A stretch of 20,270 nucleotides of DNA, taken from IMG/VR virus record IMGVR_UViG_3300013233_000165, positions 1 through 20,270 of that record; one strand, 5' to 3'. This DNA comes from a virus. Made by a program: the position numbers and the translations under genes. How positions within the stretch are numbered: position 1 is the first letter of the stretch; the number at the start of each line of letters is the position of its first letter. Below, piece by piece: positions 1,332 through 7,551 of this stretch. Below the pieces are notes generated by a model. That model was not told the origin of the DNA, ran no database searches, and was given only the letters and a program-made list of their open reading frames with translations.

Positions 1332-3038
1332 TTGACACACAACATTAAAACTCTATCTGACCGAGAACATATATTATTGCGAAGTGCAATGTATATCGGA
1401 TCTGTAGATCAAACAGAAACGAGTGATTATGTACTCAAGGGTAACGTTATTGAGTATGACACGTTCAACTATGTTCCTGGATTATGTAAGATCATCAACG
1501 AAGTGATTGATAATTGTGTTGATGTCGCTATTAAGACGCAATTCCAAAGCGCTAATCAGATATCCGTGAAGATTACATCTGACTACGTTGAAGTGAAGGA
1601 TAACGGTACTGGTATTCCAGTTGTGAAAAACAATGATGGGGATTACATTCCTATGATTTGTTGGAATCGTTCTAAAACTGGTTCCAATTTTGATGATAAT
1701 GATAATCAAGCTCAGATAGGAATGAATGGAGTCGGATCATTCGCTACTAACTGTTTCTCATCCAAATTCATCGGTAGAACATGTGACGGAATCAACGAAT
1801 ATACAATCACATTCAAGGATAACGCGGAATCGTACAAAGAATCGGTTAAACCATCGACGGTAATGGGTACAACAGTTAAATTCTACCCTGATTTGAATAG
1901 ATTCTCCTTAACCTCCATTGATGATATTCACATGTCCATCATTCGTCAACGATTGATCAATTTGAGTTTGTCGTATCCTGACATTAAATTCAAGTTCAAC
2001 AATAAATTGGTCAATGTCGGATCATTCAAGAAATACATTTCAATGTTTTCACCATCACACGAAATATACGAATCTGATGATTATAGATTTGCCATCTTAC
2101 CAAATAGTTCTGAGGATTTCCGTCAATTTTCATATGTAAACGGTCTCAAAATCCCTGATGGTGGCACTCACATTGATATCATCACTAAATCAATCGTGAA
2201 TGGTTTGCGTGACAAGTTAGTCCGTAAATACAAAAGTATCAAACCTGGTGACATCAAGAATAAATTGATGGTTGTCATGTTCATGAAGAACTTCAAGAAC
2301 GCTAAGTTCAATTCCCAAACCAAAGAAAAAATAGCAAACTCAGCTAAAGAAGTTAATGCGTTCCTTGGAAATGTTCCATTCGACTCGATCGTCGATAAAC
2401 TATTCAAAAATAAGGACATTATTGATCCTATTACTGAAATTTACCGAATTCGTGAGGAATTCAAGCGTCGTCAAGAGTTAAGTAGTTTAGGTAGTGTCAA
2501 GAAGCGTATTAAATCGGACAAATATTATCCTAGTACTGACACCAAGAAGTATTTAATACTCGTTGAGGGGGAATGTTTATCAGAGGATACGCCAATCACG
2601 ATGAGCGATCTAACGACCAAACCACTAAAGGATGTTGACATTGGTGACAGTATTCTGTCTGGGGATTTAACGACTCAAGTTGTCAAAGCGAAGACTAAAT
2701 TGTTGAAGGAGACCTTGACATTCACCAGTAGTGTTGGAGAATTTGTATGTGGTTATAAACATAAGATGTTCGTATTGGACACCAAGAACAATAAATTTGT
2801 ATATTTAACTGCAGAAACAATCAAAAACGACTTGAAACGATATAAGTTAGTCAAATCAAGGATCGACTCGAATACCAACGGATTATTGGTAACTTCTAAT
2901 GATAACGGTGTAATCGAATTAGGTACTGAGAACATAACATATACACAAGACGATTACTTCGTAGTTATGAGAAGCGATGTGATATCTAAAGTACACGGAT
3001 CTGACGTATCTCCGAATGACGTCATTATTCTTGGGTAA
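1332..3038 (+). CDS. 39: Topoisomerase II large subunit, N-terminal part, with N-half of split intein
   Basis: Residues 1-414 are a T4 gp39-like type II topoisomerase ATPase. A GHKL fold is shown by NEVIDN (E57, N61), DNGTGIP (D90) and GMNGVG (130-135). The transducer domain has NGLKIPDGGTH (270-280) and the QTK loop (329-331). The reading then enters the TOPRIM domain (LILVEGE, 408-414), where the glutamate of the catalytic E motif lies. At residue 415 the topoisomerase stops matching and an N-intein of 154 residues begins, ending at TAA 3036-3038. The start is TTG 1332, with GGAG six bases upstream inside the previous gene; the MTHNIKTLSDREHILLRSAMYIG beginning lines up with the gp39 N-terminus. 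The ATPase opens or closes the enzyme gate during strand passage in phage replication. The polypeptide should be inactive until joined to the product of the next gene. Confidence 0.93.
   Translation: MTHNIKTLSDREHILLRSAMYIGSVDQTETSDYVLKGNVIEYDTFNYVPGLCKIINEVIDNCVDVAIKTQFQSANQISVKITSDYVEVKDNGTGIPVVKNNDGDYIPMICWNRSKTGSNFDDNDNQAQIGMNGVGSFATNCFSSKFIGRTCDGINEYTITFKDNAESYKESVKPSTVMGTTVKFYPDLNRFSLTSIDDIHMSIIRQRLINLSLSYPDIKFKFNNKLVNVGSFKKYISMFSPSHEIYESDDYRFAILPNSSEDFRQFSYVNGLKIPDGGTHIDIITKSIVNGLRDKLVRKYKSIKPGDIKNKLMVVMFMKNFKNAKFNSQTKEKIANSAKEVNAFLGNVPFDSIVDKLFKNKDIIDPITEIYRIREEFKRRQELSSLGSVKKRIKSDKYYPSTDTKKYLILVEGECLSEDTPITMSDLTTKPLKDVDIGDSILSGDLTTQVVKAKTKLLKETLTFTSSVGEFVCGYKHKMFVLDTKNNKFVYLTAETIKNDLKRYKLVKSRIDSNTNGLLVTSNDNGVIELGTENITYTQDDYFVVMRSDVISKVHGSDVSPNDVIILG
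2574..3035 (+). other. N-terminal half of split intein (IntN, 154 aa)
   Basis: The segment starts with Cys1 (CLSEDTPI) directly after LVEGE. Block A features follow: TPITMSDLTTKPLKDVDIGDSIL. Block B is the GEFVCGYKHKMFVL region (about intein residues 55-68) with the conserved-type histidine. The first ~95 residues look like an ordinary Hint-fold N-half. The last ~55 are extra, without recognisable LAGLIDADG or HNH motifs, and may be a remnant of a lost endonuclease region or an association domain. The insertion point lies inside the TOPRIM active-site motif. The block assignment is from motif knowledge, not an alignment. Confidence 0.85.
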
Positions 3039-3064
3039 GTTCGGTCCAGTCAATAGGAGAACTA

Positions 3065-3211
3065 ATGATAGAAGATAAAGAATACTTCGGAATGTGTTAC
3101 GAATTAGTTGACATCGACTCCGTTGAGGATAGTGGATACAAGAATGTTCAAGACATAACGGTATCAGGAAATAATTCATTCGTATTGGGTAACGGATTAG
3201 TATCACATAAT
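3065..3211 (+). other. C-terminal half of split intein (IntC, 49 aa)
   Basis: The 49 residues end in the canonical His-Asn, followed by Ser of the C-extein (splice point 3211/3212). SGNNSFVLGNGLVSHN matches the usual blocks F and G. All residues needed for splicing are visible across both halves: Cys1 and the block B His in IntN, and the penultimate His, terminal Asn and Ser+1 here. No endonuclease gene lies between the halves. Confidence 0.85.
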
Positions 3212-3502
3212 TCAGCATTTGGTGGTCTTTCACCAGTATTAGGCAGGAAGGATTGTGGATATTATATCCTAAAGGGTAAACCACTCAATTCATACAGGGC
3301 CAAACATAGTGACTTCGTTAAGAACAAGGAATTGACTGAATTATTCAGTATAATCCGATCAGAATGTAAGTTTGCTGATAAACCGAATGGTGATTATTAT
3401 GAAATTGATGTAGATGGAGTACCGACAATTATCAATGAAAACGATTTAATCGAAGTAAACGATCAATGGATAACATTCGATCAAATGGTTGGTGATTTAT
3501 GA
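3065..3502 (+). CDS. 39: C-half of split intein plus C-terminal part of gp39-like topoisomerase subunit
   Basis: ATG 3065 has a clear AGGAG (3055-3059) and starts a 145-aa protein. Residues 1-49 are a C-intein: block F DITVSGNNSFVLGNG (about 30-44) and block G VSHN, followed by Ser as the +1 residue. Residues 50-145 resume the topoisomerase at SAFGGLSPVLGRKDCGYYILKGKPLN. They end with NEND...WITFDQMVGDL, which resembles the C-terminus of T4 gp39 (NEND...WITVGELRKNL). It is in a different frame from the upstream gene and separated from it by 26 bp. Trans-splicing with the 568-aa product would restore EGE-SAFGG, a complete TOPRIM E motif. The stop overlaps the ATG of the gp60-like gene (ATGA). 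Confidence 0.9.
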   Translation: MIEDKEYFGMCYELVDIDSVEDSGYKNVQDITVSGNNSFVLGNGLVSHNSAFGGLSPVLGRKDCGYYILKGKPLNSYRAKHSDFVKNKELTELFSIIRSECKFADKPNGDYYEIDVDGVPTIINENDLIEVNDQWITFDQMVGDL

Positions 3503-3990
3503 AAAAGTTAAAGATGACGCCCGATTTATTGAAACGATACAACAACCAAAAGAACACCAAACGTGGGAAAAAGATTGTATCTGGTTACACTCACATCGTA
3601 TACGGAACCGATCAGGATTTGGACGGATTTCATATCCGTGGATTATTATCAGGATTCTTTCATCGATATATGATTGATTGTATTGATCATATTGGTATCC
3701 TACAAACGCCTGTTATTGCTGTATCTAAGAATAAGTCATTACAACGTTGGTACTATAATTCAAGTGATGATGTTGTTGTGAAACGTGGTGAACATCCTAA
3801 GTGGATGAAGGGATTGGGTACTTGGAACGAGAAGGACCTTCGACATATTGTTGAAGTAGATGGGTTAGGTAAGATGATTCAAAAGGTTGAATTCGATTCA
3901 GCCAAAATTATAGATGAATGGTTGGGTGATGATTCAGCACCCAGAAAGTCATACATTGTTGAAAATGACTTCAACATAGCCAAATCATAA
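3499..3990 (+). CDS. 60: Topoisomerase II large subunit, distal part (gp60-like)
   Basis: This 163-aa protein is similar in size to T4 gp60 (about 160 aa). It carries the second half of the TOPRIM metal site, TDQDLDGFHIRGLL (D38, D40, D42). Further on are TPVIAVSK, then WMKGLGTW, the counterpart of the KGLG segment found in gyrase B and T4 gp60, and a C-terminal DDSAPRKSYI stretch. In T4 the large subunit is also divided at this point into gp39 and gp60. The ATG at 3499 overlaps the upstream TGA (ATGA), so translation is probably coupled. It should assemble with the spliced gp39-like protein and gp52-like subunit. No coding gap like that of T4 gene 60 is visible, because the ORF is continuous. 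Confidence 0.9.
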   Translation: MKKLKMTPDLLKRYNNQKNTKRGKKIVSGYTHIVYGTDQDLDGFHIRGLLSGFFHRYMIDCIDHIGILQTPVIAVSKNKSLQRWYYNSSDDVVVKRGEHPKWMKGLGTWNEKDLRHIVEVDGLGKMIQKVEFDSAKIIDEWLGDDSAPRKSYIVENDFNIAKS

Positions 3991-4000
3991 AGGACATACA

Positions 4001-4276
4001 ATGAAAATTTTAAAATTAACCAAACCAAAAAGAAGTCGGAAACCAATATCAATTCCTAAAGAAATTTGTATGTGGCACGTAGATTCGATCTTTCCACATA
4101 TCATCACGAAGAGTGACAATCCGTCAGATTTCATGGACATTCACACAGCGTTCAAACATCGCAGACAAATCAGTAGTTTATATGAAAACGCTCATTTTGC
4201 TGCTAATGAATTCCAACGATGGAGAGACATGGTATTGGAACGTGAATTGAATACGTTGAAACCAAAGAATAAATGA
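4001..4276 (+). CDS. Hypothetical basic protein between topoisomerase genes (91 aa)
   Basis: ATG 4001 follows AAAGGA, and the stop TGA overlaps the ATG of the gp52-like gene (ATGA at 4273). The first 20 residues are very basic (KPKRSRKP), followed by a mixed helical region with HTAFKHRRQISSLYENAHFAANEFQRWRDMVLERE. There is no signal peptide or membrane segment. I do not recognise the family. Location inside the topoisomerase operon, coupling to gp52, and the basic start make a DNA- or topoisomerase-associated role plausible, but this is inference. Confidence 0.75.
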   Translation: MKILKLTKPKRSRKPISIPKEICMWHVDSIFPHIITKSDNPSDFMDIHTAFKHRRQISSLYENAHFAANEFQRWRDMVLERELNTLKPKNK

Positions 4277-5586
4277 AATTAACAGATTTCTTCAATACTG
4301 ATTACGTCGATCACGCCAGTTACGACAATCTCAGGAAGATTGCATCTGTTGTTGATGGACAAAAGAACGCTGCTCGTAAAGTATTATATACTATTATGAA
4401 CAAGAATATTCATGAAGAAATCAAGGTTTCTCAATTGGATAGTAAAGCAGCTGAATTTGCTGAATACTTACATGGTTCGATGGCAAGTGTTATTGTCAAC
4501 TTAGCGCAAGATCACATTGGTACCAACAATATTGCGTTATTACAATCATCTGGTAACTTTGGTACACGATTTTGTCCAGAGGCATCTGCACCGAGATACA
4601 TTTACACGTATGGTTCTGATAGGTTCTTCGAATTATTCGATAAAAACGACAATGTAAACCTCACAGCTCAAACATTCGAGGAGAACAACATTGAGCCTGT
4701 GTTCTATGTACCGAATCTTCCATTATTGTTAGTAAATGGTTCAGACGGATTGAGTTCAGGATTTGCTCAGAAGATTCTTCCACGAAGTGTTGATTCTATA
4801 ACTCAATACATTGTTGATTTTATAAATAAGAAACCAGCGGATGTTAGTTTATTGATTCCACATTATGATGGATTCATGGGAACGATTGTTCAAGGCAAAA
4901 CATCCAAACAATGGGAAATGTCGGGAGTTGCGAAGAAAATCGGAGTAAATAAGGTCGAGATTTCTGAACTCCCAATAGGATACGATCTTCGGAGTTACTT
5001 GAAGACGTTGGATACATTGGAAGATAAGAAAGTGATTCATTCTTATGATGATAAATCTGATCAGGATAAATTCTCATTTATTGTCAGAATTAACAGTAAA
5101 GACCTGAGTAAATGGTCCCATGATGATATTATCACCAAACTCAAACTCAGAAAAGTAGTGTCTGAGAACTACACAGTCATCGATGAGAATAATAAGATTT
5201 GTGTGTATGAGACAATCAAAGACGTTATTGATCATTACATCCGAATTAAAATGGAGTATATGGATAAACGCAAAACGTCATTATTGTCAGAATATTCCTA
5301 TCAAATTGATTTAGCTATGAGTAAAACGATATTTATTCAATCCATTCTTGATGACGTTCTTCGTATAAATAAACGAAAGAAAAAAGATATTGTGGAAGAC
5401 CTGTCTGACATTGATGGTATTATTAAAGTTGATGGTGACTATGATTATTTATTGAATATGTCGATCCAATCTCTTACTGTTGAAAGGGTGAATGTATTGA
5501 CTAAGAACACAAACGAACAAAAACGAACAAAGAAACGTTTGGAGAAGACGACAATCGAACAACTATGGTTGAACGATATTACATGA
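4273..5586 (+). CDS. 52: Topoisomerase II medium subunit (gp52-like)
   Basis: The 437-aa product has the length and layout of T4 gp52 (about 440 aa), the GyrA/ParC-type breakage-reunion subunit. VVDGQKNAARKVLYTIM (about 26-42) matches the DG.KPVQRR-type winged-helix segment. SSGNFGTR...EASAPRYIYT contains the likely catalytic tyrosine Y109, preceded by R108. LLVNGSDGLSSGFAQKILP (about 154-172) matches the conserved NG..GIA.G....P region, and a coiled-coil-rich C-terminal part ends the protein. It forms the transient covalent link to DNA during double-strand passage. The start overlaps the previous stop. TATAAATA occurs twice inside this gene (4821, 5364); these are explained by coding sequence and are probably not promoters. 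Confidence 0.95.
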   Translation: MKLTDFFNTDYVDHASYDNLRKIASVVDGQKNAARKVLYTIMNKNIHEEIKVSQLDSKAAEFAEYLHGSMASVIVNLAQDHIGTNNIALLQSSGNFGTRFCPEASAPRYIYTYGSDRFFELFDKNDNVNLTAQTFEENNIEPVFYVPNLPLLLVNGSDGLSSGFAQKILPRSVDSITQYIVDFINKKPADVSLLIPHYDGFMGTIVQGKTSKQWEMSGVAKKIGVNKVEISELPIGYDLRSYLKTLDTLEDKKVIHSYDDKSDQDKFSFIVRINSKDLSKWSHDDIITKLKLRKVVSENYTVIDENNKICVYETIKDVIDHYIRIKMEYMDKRKTSLLSEYSYQIDLAMSKTIFIQSILDDVLRINKRKKKDIVEDLSDIDGIIKVDGDYDYLLNMSIQSLTVERVNVLTKNTNEQKRTKKRLEKTTIEQLWLNDIT

Positions 5587-5882
5587 TAGACACCTACAAC
5601 AACTTCGTTTATTTCAACGTGTTGTGCTTGGTGTGTGTGTGGGTGTGTCAGGAGACAATCATTACATGTTTACCAACAAAACCTAAACAGTTTTTGTTGG
5701 CGTTGATAGAATCATTACCGAAAAAAACAGTGTACGACCATATGTCCTTGTTGTTTCCTATACACTCAGTGTATTTGTTGGGAGTATTTGTATATTTGTG
5801 TGTCAAACACGGTACATTTAAAGGAGTATGTATGTATAACTTATCTATGAACAAATTAATGGTGATTAGAAAATGTTCGTAA
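5583..5882 (+). CDS. Hypothetical cysteine-rich hydrophobic protein (99 aa)
   Basis: ATG 5583 overlaps the gp52 stop (ATGA), the same junction style as neighbouring genes, and the ORF runs to TAA 5882, ten bases into the next gene. An upstream in-frame start at 5565 exists but would overlap gp52 more. The protein is rich in Cys, Leu and Val, with two hydrophobic stretches (about VYFNVLCLVCVWVC and LLFPIHSVYLLGVFVYLCV), so it may be membrane-associated. Composition differs from neighbours: a GTGTGTGTGTGGGTGTGT run and two strong hairpins (5590-5634 and 5673-5700). A structured non-coding RNA with an incidental ORF cannot be excluded. An in-frame ATG at 5832 follows AAGGAG (5821-5826), so a 16-residue product is also possible. 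Confidence 0.5.
   Translation: MIDTYNNFVYFNVLCLVCVWVCQETIITCLPTKPKQFLLALIESLPKKTVYDHMSLLFPIHSVYLLGVFVYLCVKHGTFKGVCMYNLSMNKLMVIRKCS
5590..5634 (+). other. Potential RNA hairpin within the 99-aa ORF
   Basis: ACACC (5590-5594) pairs with GGTGT (5630-5634), ACAACA (5596-5601) with TGTTGT (5620-5625), and CGTT (5606-5609) with AACG (5616-5619), forming one coaxial stem with small internal loops. A second hairpin pairs CCAACAAAA (5673-5681) with TTTTGTTGG (5692-5700). Neither has a T-tract, so they are not standard terminators. Chance is possible. Confidence 0.3.
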
Positions 5883-6532
5883 CTATTGATCCGTACTACG
5901 ACACCAACTTCTTCAATATGACGAAGGAGACATTGGCCAATAATGACATCGATTACGACTTATTTATTACGACAAAACCACCATACGATTGGTATTTCCG
6001 AGTTGACTCCAAACCAATCATGGTTAATTATGACGAGCTCAAACACGGAAGTGACCGATTTTTAGTTAGTTTGGTCAAACCATTACGTCCTGATGAGGAA
6101 TATAAGATGGTCAGACGGAACTCTGACGTCGGAATGAATGCGTTATCTAAGTTCATTAATAATTCTCCAATGTTAGAATCGACAAAGTCGTCATATTCAG
6201 TATTCTTTCATATTAATAGTCGTGGAGTTGGCGAAAAACTATCCAAGGAATACCCTGGCAAGATATGGTTTATGGGACGATACTTTGATAGTAGATATAA
6301 TGTGTGTTTAGTCAATAATATGTCAGTATTGGCGTTCTTAGACGATAAAGATATTATTTTAGAGAAAACGTCAGTTGGGCACATTGGGGAATTCGAAACT
6401 GAATTCAACTATAGGATACTCAAAGGACGAGAATACTTAGTTAAATTCACTGACACTCCTTATTTCTTAGGGGGAACATATCATAAACCTAAGATTCGTG
6501 GTGATATGTCTAAAAAATTCACACTGACATAA
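5873..6532 (+). CDS. Hypothetical protein (219 aa)
   Basis: The ORF begins at ATG 5873, overlapping the end of the preceding ORF, and ends at TAA 6530-6532. The ribosome binding site is weak (GGTGATTAG), so translation may be coupled to the upstream ORF, whose reading frame carries an AAGGAG at 5821. The product is soluble and mixed alpha/beta in appearance, without a signal peptide, membrane segment or nucleotide-binding motif. Features such as KPPYDWYFRVD, KPLRPDEEYKMVRR and GKIWFMGRYFDSRYN do not identify a family to me. It is followed by another unrecognised gene behind AGGAG. Function unknown. Confidence 0.75.
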   Translation: MFVTIDPYYDTNFFNMTKETLANNDIDYDLFITTKPPYDWYFRVDSKPIMVNYDELKHGSDRFLVSLVKPLRPDEEYKMVRRNSDVGMNALSKFINNSPMLESTKSSYSVFFHINSRGVGEKLSKEYPGKIWFMGRYFDSRYNVCLVNNMSVLAFLDDKDIILEKTSVGHIGEFETEFNYRILKGREYLVKFTDTPYFLGGTYHKPKIRGDMSKKFTLT

Positions 6533-6545
6533 TAGGAGAAACAAG

Positions 6546-6995
6546 TTGATTGACAACGAACTCGAACAATTATTCAAAATAGCTCAAATAGAAAGTAGCA
6601 ATAAATTAATTCAACAAATCGAATGGGGTCCAAGTAATTATGACGCACTACGAGAACTGTTGTTGAGTGATGCAATTGAGTGTGCTGTGGTGTTTTGTGA
6701 GTATGGCTCAGTTAATGTATCTAGTAAAGAAGTACAACTATTATATAATTTTTGTGTATTGGAAATTGTTAGACTCGATCAAATTGAAGAGTCCATGGGA
6801 ATATATAATGACAGTATGAATATGTTCACTAATCTATCTGAGTCCGTAAAAAAACATAAATCCACAAAATCTTTAGGGACTATGTGTGAGATTCCGTTAT
6901 ATTCAAAAGTAGAAATCGAGTTGTATTGTTTACAATCTGAGTTGTCGTTTTGTGTACGAATATTGAAAAATTTAATTGACCGAATTGTCCATTAG
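6546..6995 (+). CDS. Hypothetical acidic helical protein (149 aa)
   Basis: The start is TTG 6546, supported by AGGAG at 6534-6538 with a 7-base gap; no better ATG lies nearby. The protein is mainly helical and rich in Glu, Leu and Ile, with several cysteines (for example AIECAVVFCEYG and LYNFCVLEIV). The C-terminal third is VEIELYCLQSELSFCVRILKNLIDRIVH. There is no recognisable catalytic motif. Its neighbours are also unknown, but the block leads into replication genes. Function unknown. Confidence 0.75.
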   Translation: MIDNELEQLFKIAQIESSNKLIQQIEWGPSNYDALRELLLSDAIECAVVFCEYGSVNVSSKEVQLLYNFCVLEIVRLDQIEESMGIYNDSMNMFTNLSESVKKHKSTKSLGTMCEIPLYSKVEIELYCLQSELSFCVRILKNLIDRIVH

Positions 6996-7003
6996 GAGAA
7001 AGT

Positions 7004-7225
7004 ATGATTATAGAATTAAGGGAATTTCCTGTTGGTTCAAAGTTGAAGAAATTGAACGTCGAACTCACATTCGACAACGATGGTCCGACATTAGAACAAA
7101 CATTCGAAGTGTCTGACGAAACATTAGATGCTCCAGTGCAAACAGTATACGAACCAGAAGTGGTAACTGAAACAGTAGATAATGCACCAGAAGTGCCCGA
7201 AGAAATGCGCGATATTACATTCTAA
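7004..7225 (+). CDS. Small acidic protein with SSB-like C-terminal tip (73 aa)
   Basis: ATG 7004 follows AGGAG (6994-6998), eight bases after the previous stop. The 73-residue product begins with a short beta-rich segment (IIELREF...KLKKLNVELTF) and then becomes strongly acidic. It ends EVPEEMRDITF, with a terminal Phe after an acidic run. Its stop overlaps the start of the next gene (TAATG). The next protein has a similar opening (KLNIE...LHIVF) and a similar ending (EELQNLDF), so the two may be distant paralogues. Acidic tails ending in a hydrophobic residue are known in bacterial SSB and in T4 clamp-binding proteins; which applies here, if either, is not shown. Confidence 0.75.
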   Translation: MIIELREFPVGSKLKKLNVELTFDNDGPTLEQTFEVSDETLDAPVQTVYEPEVVTETVDNAPEVPEEMRDITF

Positions 7226-7551
7226 TGTTCAAACTCAACATCGAATGTTCAAGAGATTTTGACGAATTACATATTGTATTTTCTGACGGAACTGGTGTGA
7301 GCATCGACTCTAAGAAACAATCAGTATCTAAGAAACAATCAGTATCTAAGAAACAATCAGTATCTAAGAAACAATCAGTATCTAAGAAACAATCAGTATC
7401 TAAAACAACTAATGTTAAACAACAACCAATGTTAGACACCTCAATCGATTACAATCATACAACTGACGTTGAATCGATTGAATTGCCAATCATCGAAGAC
7501 CATCATCGGAAACCTAATGTTGCTGAGGAACTTCAAAATTTAGACTTCTAA
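7225..7551 (+). CDS. Hypothetical protein with five SKKQSV repeats (108 aa)
   Basis: ATG 7225 overlaps the previous stop (TAATG). Residues 1-28 are a short beta-rich start (FKLNIECSRDFDELHIVF). Residues about 29-58 are five exact tandem SKKQSV hexapeptides, encoded by five perfect 18-bp repeats at 7309-7398. The remainder is an acidic stretch (VESIELPIIEDHH) ending AEELQNLDF. The basic Ser/Lys repeat is probably a flexible linker whose length can change by replication slippage. The ends resemble those of the 73-aa neighbour. It is followed by the promoter region of the actin-like gene. Function unknown. Confidence 0.75.
   Translation: MFKLNIECSRDFDELHIVFSDGTGVSIDSKKQSVSKKQSVSKKQSVSKKQSVSKKQSVSKTTNVKQQPMLDTSIDYNHTTDVESIELPIIEDHHRKPNVAEELQNLDF
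7309..7398 (+). repeat. Five perfect 18-bp tandem repeats
   Basis: The unit TCTAAGAAACAATCAGTA occurs five times without a change (7309, 7327, 7345, 7363, 7381), followed by a partial TCTAAAACA. It is in frame and encodes SKKQSV. Perfect identity at every base suggests recent expansion. Confidence 0.97.

Follow-up and report, generated by a model that had tools for sequence, protein, structure and literature searches.

A probable naturally split intein in the TOPRIM motif of a T4-like topoisomerase large subunit

The topoisomerase genes of the window

The window analysed here is a 20,270-base virus record of IMG/VR (IMGVR_UViG_3300013233_000165), called T4-like, which encodes a T4-like topoisomerase cluster made up of gp39-like pieces, a gp60-like piece and a gp52-like gene (Table 1). 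Within the TOPRIM motif of the gp39-like large subunit the reading is interrupted by two intein-like halves that lie on separate genes. The first open reading frame (ORF), at 1332-3038, has a TTG start and reads ...KKYLILVEGE and then CLSEDTPI...NDVIILG before its stop codon. Its topoisomerase part, the N-extein, matches Pfam DNA_gyraseB (E 1.6e-13) and NCBIfam gyrB (1.7e-26) and is 62% identical to the intact homologue L002. The N-terminal intein half (IntN) begins with Cys1 at 2574-2576, has its block-B His63 at 2760-2762 and stops at 3036-3038. The second gene, whose ATG is preceded by a well-spaced AGGAG, holds the C-terminal intein half (IntC) and reads MIEDKEYFGMCYELVDID...DITVSGNNSFVLGNGLVSHN, then SAFGGLSPVLG..., with its stop at 3500-3502. 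The residues of IntC end in ...NGLVSHN ahead of SAFGGLSPVLG, the penultimate His lying at 3206-3208 and the terminal Asn at 3209-3211. A first-pass annotation, made from the letters alone, had described a gp39-like reading to LVEGE followed by a CLSEDTPI intein start and a stop, and 26 nucleotides (nt) on a second gene with AGGAG and ATG in another frame, ending in VSHN and then SAFGGLSPVLG; these coordinates hold.

The gp60-like piece has NCBIfam gyrase B family matches (best E 4.9e-14) and is homologous to the C-terminal part of L002 and to T4 gp60. A homologue scan using the gp52-like protein alone gave no matches.

Table 1. Positions of the topoisomerase genes and intein parts in the window (aa, amino acids)
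Feature	Position	Strand	Remark
N-extein, gp39-like topoisomerase II large subunit residues 1-414 (GHKL ATPase, transducer, TOPRIM start to LVEGE)	1332..2573	+	
IntN, 154 aa plus stop codon	2574..3038	+	
Extra block-B-like module at IntN end, about residues 108-154	2895..3035	+	hhalign; repeated strand order in model
26-nt gap between halves, AGGAG at 3055-3059	3039..3064	+	occupied by the homing endonuclease gene in most relatives
IntC, 49 aa, own ATG at 3065, frame different from that of IntN	3065..3211	+	
C-extein, 96 aa plus stop, Ser+1, SAFGGLSPVLG..., gp39 C-terminal tail of T4/Campylobacter-phage type	3212..3502	+	
gp60-like third piece of large subunit, DxDxDG as GTDQDLDGFH	3499..3990	+	overlaps preceding stop by ATGA
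gp52-like topoisomerase small subunit, intact	4273..5586	+	Pfam DNA_topoisoIV E 1e-65

The empty site and the family of split loci

L002 is the empty allele of this site: its whole large subunit is a single 599-aa ORF containing LVEGDSAFGGLSPVFG and no intein, which places the insertion exactly between E/D and S. Other intein-less relatives likewise have LVEGD-SAFGGL in one unbroken ORF, and intact intein-less ORFs were found at 95 sampled homologue loci, a few of them near-duplicates. The point at which the chains would be sealed, LVEGE-SAFGG, is two residues past the catalytic Glu of TOPRIM. Separately, the otherwise intact gp39 homologue of L039 is interrupted by a TAG stop (7210-7280), in frame and a short way ahead of the TOPRIM EG.SA motif. 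Some Vibrio phage matches gave the impression of extending into intein residues, but judged by coordinates they look continuous and lack an intein.

A split intein occupies the TOPRIM site in 25 contigs including the window, and profile scans and tblastn found no cis intein there. This sample is enriched for intein carriers, since one scan was run with the IntC profile; among its members, L118 and L120 are near-identical. In most split loci a free homing-endonuclease gene lies between the halves. By tblastn, the unannotated 462-kb phage genome LR756500.1 (L004) is split at the same site into IntN, a 373-aa free ORF and IntC, and a profile scan brought up L008, a closer relative, in which a 430-aa endonuclease-like ORF separates the halves. 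Other members depart from this arrangement. What is left of a decayed endonuclease, its tail, can still be read in the gaps of L228 (about 315 nt) and L229 (about 190 nt). The IntN and IntC ORFs of L207 overlap by a few bases, and in a contig of 158 kb about 79 kb separate the gp39N-IntN gene from the IntC gene, both being on one strand. No fractured-gene endonuclease lies between the halves of the window, where the gap is 26 nt only. The window fits as an endonuclease-free member of a graded series, and has lost its homing endonuclease gene.

Six of the free ORFs have in common a CxxC...C...C region at the N-terminus and an E...G...H...K pattern at the C-terminus. The sole PDB matches of their profile are three Vsr entries, at weak E-values of 0.1-0.15, and one of the six matches DUF559 (E 2.6e-6); these matches are consistent with membership of the Vsr-like (EDxHD) family, which has reportedly been described for fractured genes. 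By our reading of the sequences, the free ORFs of L004, L101 and L118/L120 terminate in an HNH-like stretch instead.

Some of these genomes have further breaks. In L004 the gp52-like subunit is fractured too (4726-7448), into an IntN (HHGD then CGDYDTP), a free 300-aa endonuclease-like ORF and an IntC (VVHN then SALNQA), so that both topoisomerase subunits would need trans-splicing; a similar IntC is found in gp52 of L209. In L056 (IMGVR_UViG_3300014838_001158) the large-subunit gene has a second split intein, inside DxDxDG (3500-4135 and 4286-4873). Its IntN (...LANDAD then CLYENTEI, 91 aa) matches Hint_2 at E 2.8e-7 and its IntC (...EYVLSHN then CDGAHI) scores above the intein_Cterm cut-off; to complete this large subunit, two split inteins would have to link three chains.

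The essential residues of class-1 inteins are in place in the window. Cys1 directly follows the N-extein (LVEGE then CLSEDT), His63 is the block-B His, and the C-terminal junction (...SHN then SA) supplies the penultimate His, the terminal Asn and Ser+1; the halves are separate genes, IntN stopping at 3036 and IntC having its own ribosome-binding site and ATG at 3065. By itself IntC scores 29.4 bits with NCBIfam intein_Cterm, against a curated cut-off of 15.6. We aligned IntN and IntC separately, because the two Hint halves resemble each other and a joint alignment misplaced fragments. The resulting IntN family profile matches the gp41-1 intein in PDB (E 1.8e-5) and that of IntC the Npu/Ssp DnaE inteins (E 8.6e-5). 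Cys1 stands at every IntN start in the family, the block-B His is invariant (24 of 24 IntN) and HN followed by Ser closes every IntC, at IntN identities to the window of 17-38%. The conservation of Cys1, of the His of block B, of the penultimate His and terminal Asn and of Ser+1 makes it probable that the window halves are active in trans-splicing.

IntN is 154-171 aa long in 23 of the 24 family members (101 aa in L230), and that of the window is about 50 residues longer than the usual length of about 100. Profile comparison identifies the additional stretch as a repeat of the block-B module: hhalign aligned module 1 with module 2 at a probability of 97% (E 6.7e-11, score 50.3), against scores of at most 10.6 in 30 column shuffles and 6.3 for a reversed profile. 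The Hint fold has internal pseudo-symmetry and some self-similarity is expected; the unusual part is the further block-B copy at the IntN end. L230, with its IntN of 101 aa, suggests that this extra module may be dispensable. An AlphaFold2 model of IntN alone (predicted local distance difference test score 86) has a repeated strand pattern. Known inteins align with each of two of its segments, residues 1-45 and 45-93 (Z about 5-6, root-mean-square deviation 1.2-1.7), and residues 111-154 align with part of the Pyrococcus horikoshii PolII mini-intein (Z 4.8), all of these Z values being modest.

Intein presence requires at least 12 changes on a tree of 105 gp39 N-exteins, and its distribution is therefore patchy. 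The exteins nearest to that of the window are without an intein. The IntN closest to that of the window is from L057 (38%), whose extein is only 38% identical, while L237 and L008 share more of the extein with the window (57% and 53% identity) but have IntN only 29-30% identical to its own. These relationships point to horizontal movement of the intein, to the extent that long branches and sampling allow.

Trans-splicing and its alternatives

On the anatomy of the locus, the empty allele, the homologous fractured loci, the conserved catalytic residues and the patchy distribution, all read from sequence, the large subunit of the T4-like type II topoisomerase of the window very probably contains a class-1 intein that is naturally split, acts by trans-splicing and has lost its homing endonuclease. 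It would be a "fractured gene" whose free-standing endonuclease disappeared here and was kept in most relatives. The split TOPRIM intein proposed in the first-pass annotation is thus borne out by the empty allele, by homologous fractured loci and by halves 79 kb apart.

Two separately started chains would be made, gp39-N (414 aa)-IntN and IntC-gp39-C (96 aa), and their intein halves would associate. The chemistry of class-1 intein splicing is established: Cys1 and Ser+1 would perform the usual acyl shifts, Asn cyclisation would release the intein, and a 510-residue gp39 would be sealed at LVEGE-SAFGG. The gp39 proteins of T4 (516 aa) and Campylobacter phage WX1 (504 aa) are of comparable length. 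The product of about 510 residues expected earlier agrees with 414 + 96 aa but is not the whole subunit, as the gp60-like third piece carries DxDxDG; spliced gp39 would then assemble non-covalently with that piece (3499-3990) and with gp52, as in T4. We infer that splicing takes place, and that the enzyme is inactive beforehand: since the TOPRIM Glu is not on the chain that bears the remainder of the motif, it may plausibly be kept inactive until the halves meet.

Several observations weigh against this interpretation. The earlier statement that all usual splicing residues are present is correct for the essential ones, but in the window the block-B Thr is replaced by Gly and the usual block-F His by Asn. 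The Hint-domain profile search it called for placed IntC above the intein_Cterm cut-off and the family profiles among inteins, but the window IntN taken singly falls under the Pfam cut-offs (Hom_end_hint E 0.003); the evidence that IntN is an intein is weak from the single sequence and strong from the family. Foldseek matches of the whole IntN model are weak (E 0.015 or worse) and its predicted template modelling score is 0.47, because only half an intein was modelled. Finally, the window is a 20-kb contig from an uncultured virus, without reads.

Selection could maintain the split as a regulatory device: if the halves differed in the timing or level of their synthesis, activity would begin only once both are present. 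This is compatible with the trans-splicing explanation, and the split does persist after loss of the endonuclease (the window, L207, L228 and L229) and in one contig with its halves far apart in the genome. As an account of the window we think it unlikely, as 26 nt within one apparent operon make timing control unlikely there, and persistence may reflect only the rarity of precise rejoining. It is more doubtful still that the intein halves are dead remnants and that the topoisomerase pieces assemble non-covalently without splicing, like T4 gp39/gp60. The large subunit of T4 topoisomerase consists of two unspliced pieces and the enzyme does function (PMC2988022), and the gene of the window is already broken in T4 style at 3499. 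However, Cys1, the block-B His, the penultimate His, the Asn and Ser+1 persist at 17-38% IntN identity, the exteins are intact, and about 200 unspliced residues would sit two residues from the catalytic Glu.

Least credible is a cis-splicing mini-intein whose stop and frame change come from a sequencing or assembly error near 3020-3036: although the IntC frame is open from 3020, as had been noted, so that one indel would join the frames across a gap of merely 26 nt, such a single-base error is very unlikely, since the stop falls where IntN of the relatives ends, IntC has its own AGGAG/ATG, the split point is kept in all 25 intein contigs with no cis form found, and relatives have overlapping halves, decayed endonucleases and, in one case, halves 79 kb apart.

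Relation to known inteins and split topoisomerases

The nearest parallels to the trans-splicing arrangement are the fractured genes of the gp41-1, NrdJ-1 and IMPDH-1 types. There, too, a split intein breaks a phage replication gene and, as in most relatives of the window, the halves flank a free-standing endonuclease, Vsr-like (EDxHD) or HNH; gp41-1 is the nearest PDB entry to our IntN family profile. Unlike in the known cases, the host gene here is the large subunit of a type II topoisomerase, broken at a TOPRIM EGx then SA site, the window is without an endonuclease and its IntN has an extra block-B-like module.

Bacterial and archaeal GyrB inteins (Synechocystis GyrB type) also interrupt the TOPRIM region of a B-type subunit and also have Cys1 and HN-S. 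They are inserted at VEGxSAGG then SAK, four residues downstream of the phage site, at 40 of 40 loci, the search query having been used only to retrieve real loci. They were contiguous in all 36 measured, whereas that of the window is split. By its insertion site the window intein is not the GyrB type already known.

Natural split inteins of T4-like PolB (Aes123, CP21) are cysteine-less, with an IntN of 115-120 aa (PMC12707363). They likewise join a replication protein of T4-like phages, but the window differs in gene and site, has Cys1, and its IntN is 154 aa.

The second break of the window, at 3499, lies at the same place as the gp39/gp60 break of T4, which has been ascribed to the MobA endonuclease (PMC2988022). 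As in T4, the break precedes DxDxDG, and a characteristic gp39 tail and a gp60-like piece are present; the tail (YYEIDVDG...INENDLIEV...) aligns with those of T4 and Campylobacter phage gp39. The first break of the window has an intein and this second one does not. The gp60 of the window is also without a bypass element, unlike T4 gene 60. Translational bypass sites like that of T4 gene 60 were seen at the same DxDxD(G) position of gp60 in L008 (6440-6540), L025 (7640-7760), L048 (7600-7700) and L061 (8880-8975), each with a take-off codon, a stop, a short hairpin and a matching or synonymous landing codon (GAC/GAC; GGT/GGC in L061) across gaps of 37-45 nt. L008 also has a gene for a GIY-YIG-like endonuclease directly upstream.

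The window also contains several repeats. Directly before the gp39 gene (952-1331) are two tandem 192-nt units encoding similar short peptides (MEYLNEFVENMD... and MEYLNDLVKNMD...). Both contig ends (35-854 and 19921-20270) hold arrays of a 69-nt repeat in opposite orientation, with about 12 and 5 copies, the contig terminating within the right-hand array, and five perfect 18-nt repeats (7309-7403) encode a KKQSVS repeat within a small ORF.

The survey of Dassa et al. 2009 (NAR 37:2560) reportedly covers eight enzyme types with fractured genes. In the open literature searched, a scope outside which Dassa et al. 2009 falls, a phage topoisomerase with a split intein was not encountered. We lean, by a small margin, towards an undescribed family of natural split inteins with a new TOPRIM site, an extra IntN module, in some members far-apart halves and, in one, a large subunit made from three chains by two inteins.

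The TOPRIM site of a classic replication enzyme would here be formed only after two chains join, with a third chain apparently added non-covalently. These Cys1/Ser+1 split inteins, with their unusually long IntN, would be new material for protein ligation work. The origin and fixation of split inteins have long been argued from cyanobacterial DnaE. The topoisomerase loci comprise a graded series, from the empty site through a split intein with an endonuclease, with a decayed endonuclease and with none, to dispersed halves, and both questions therefore become directly testable inside one gene.
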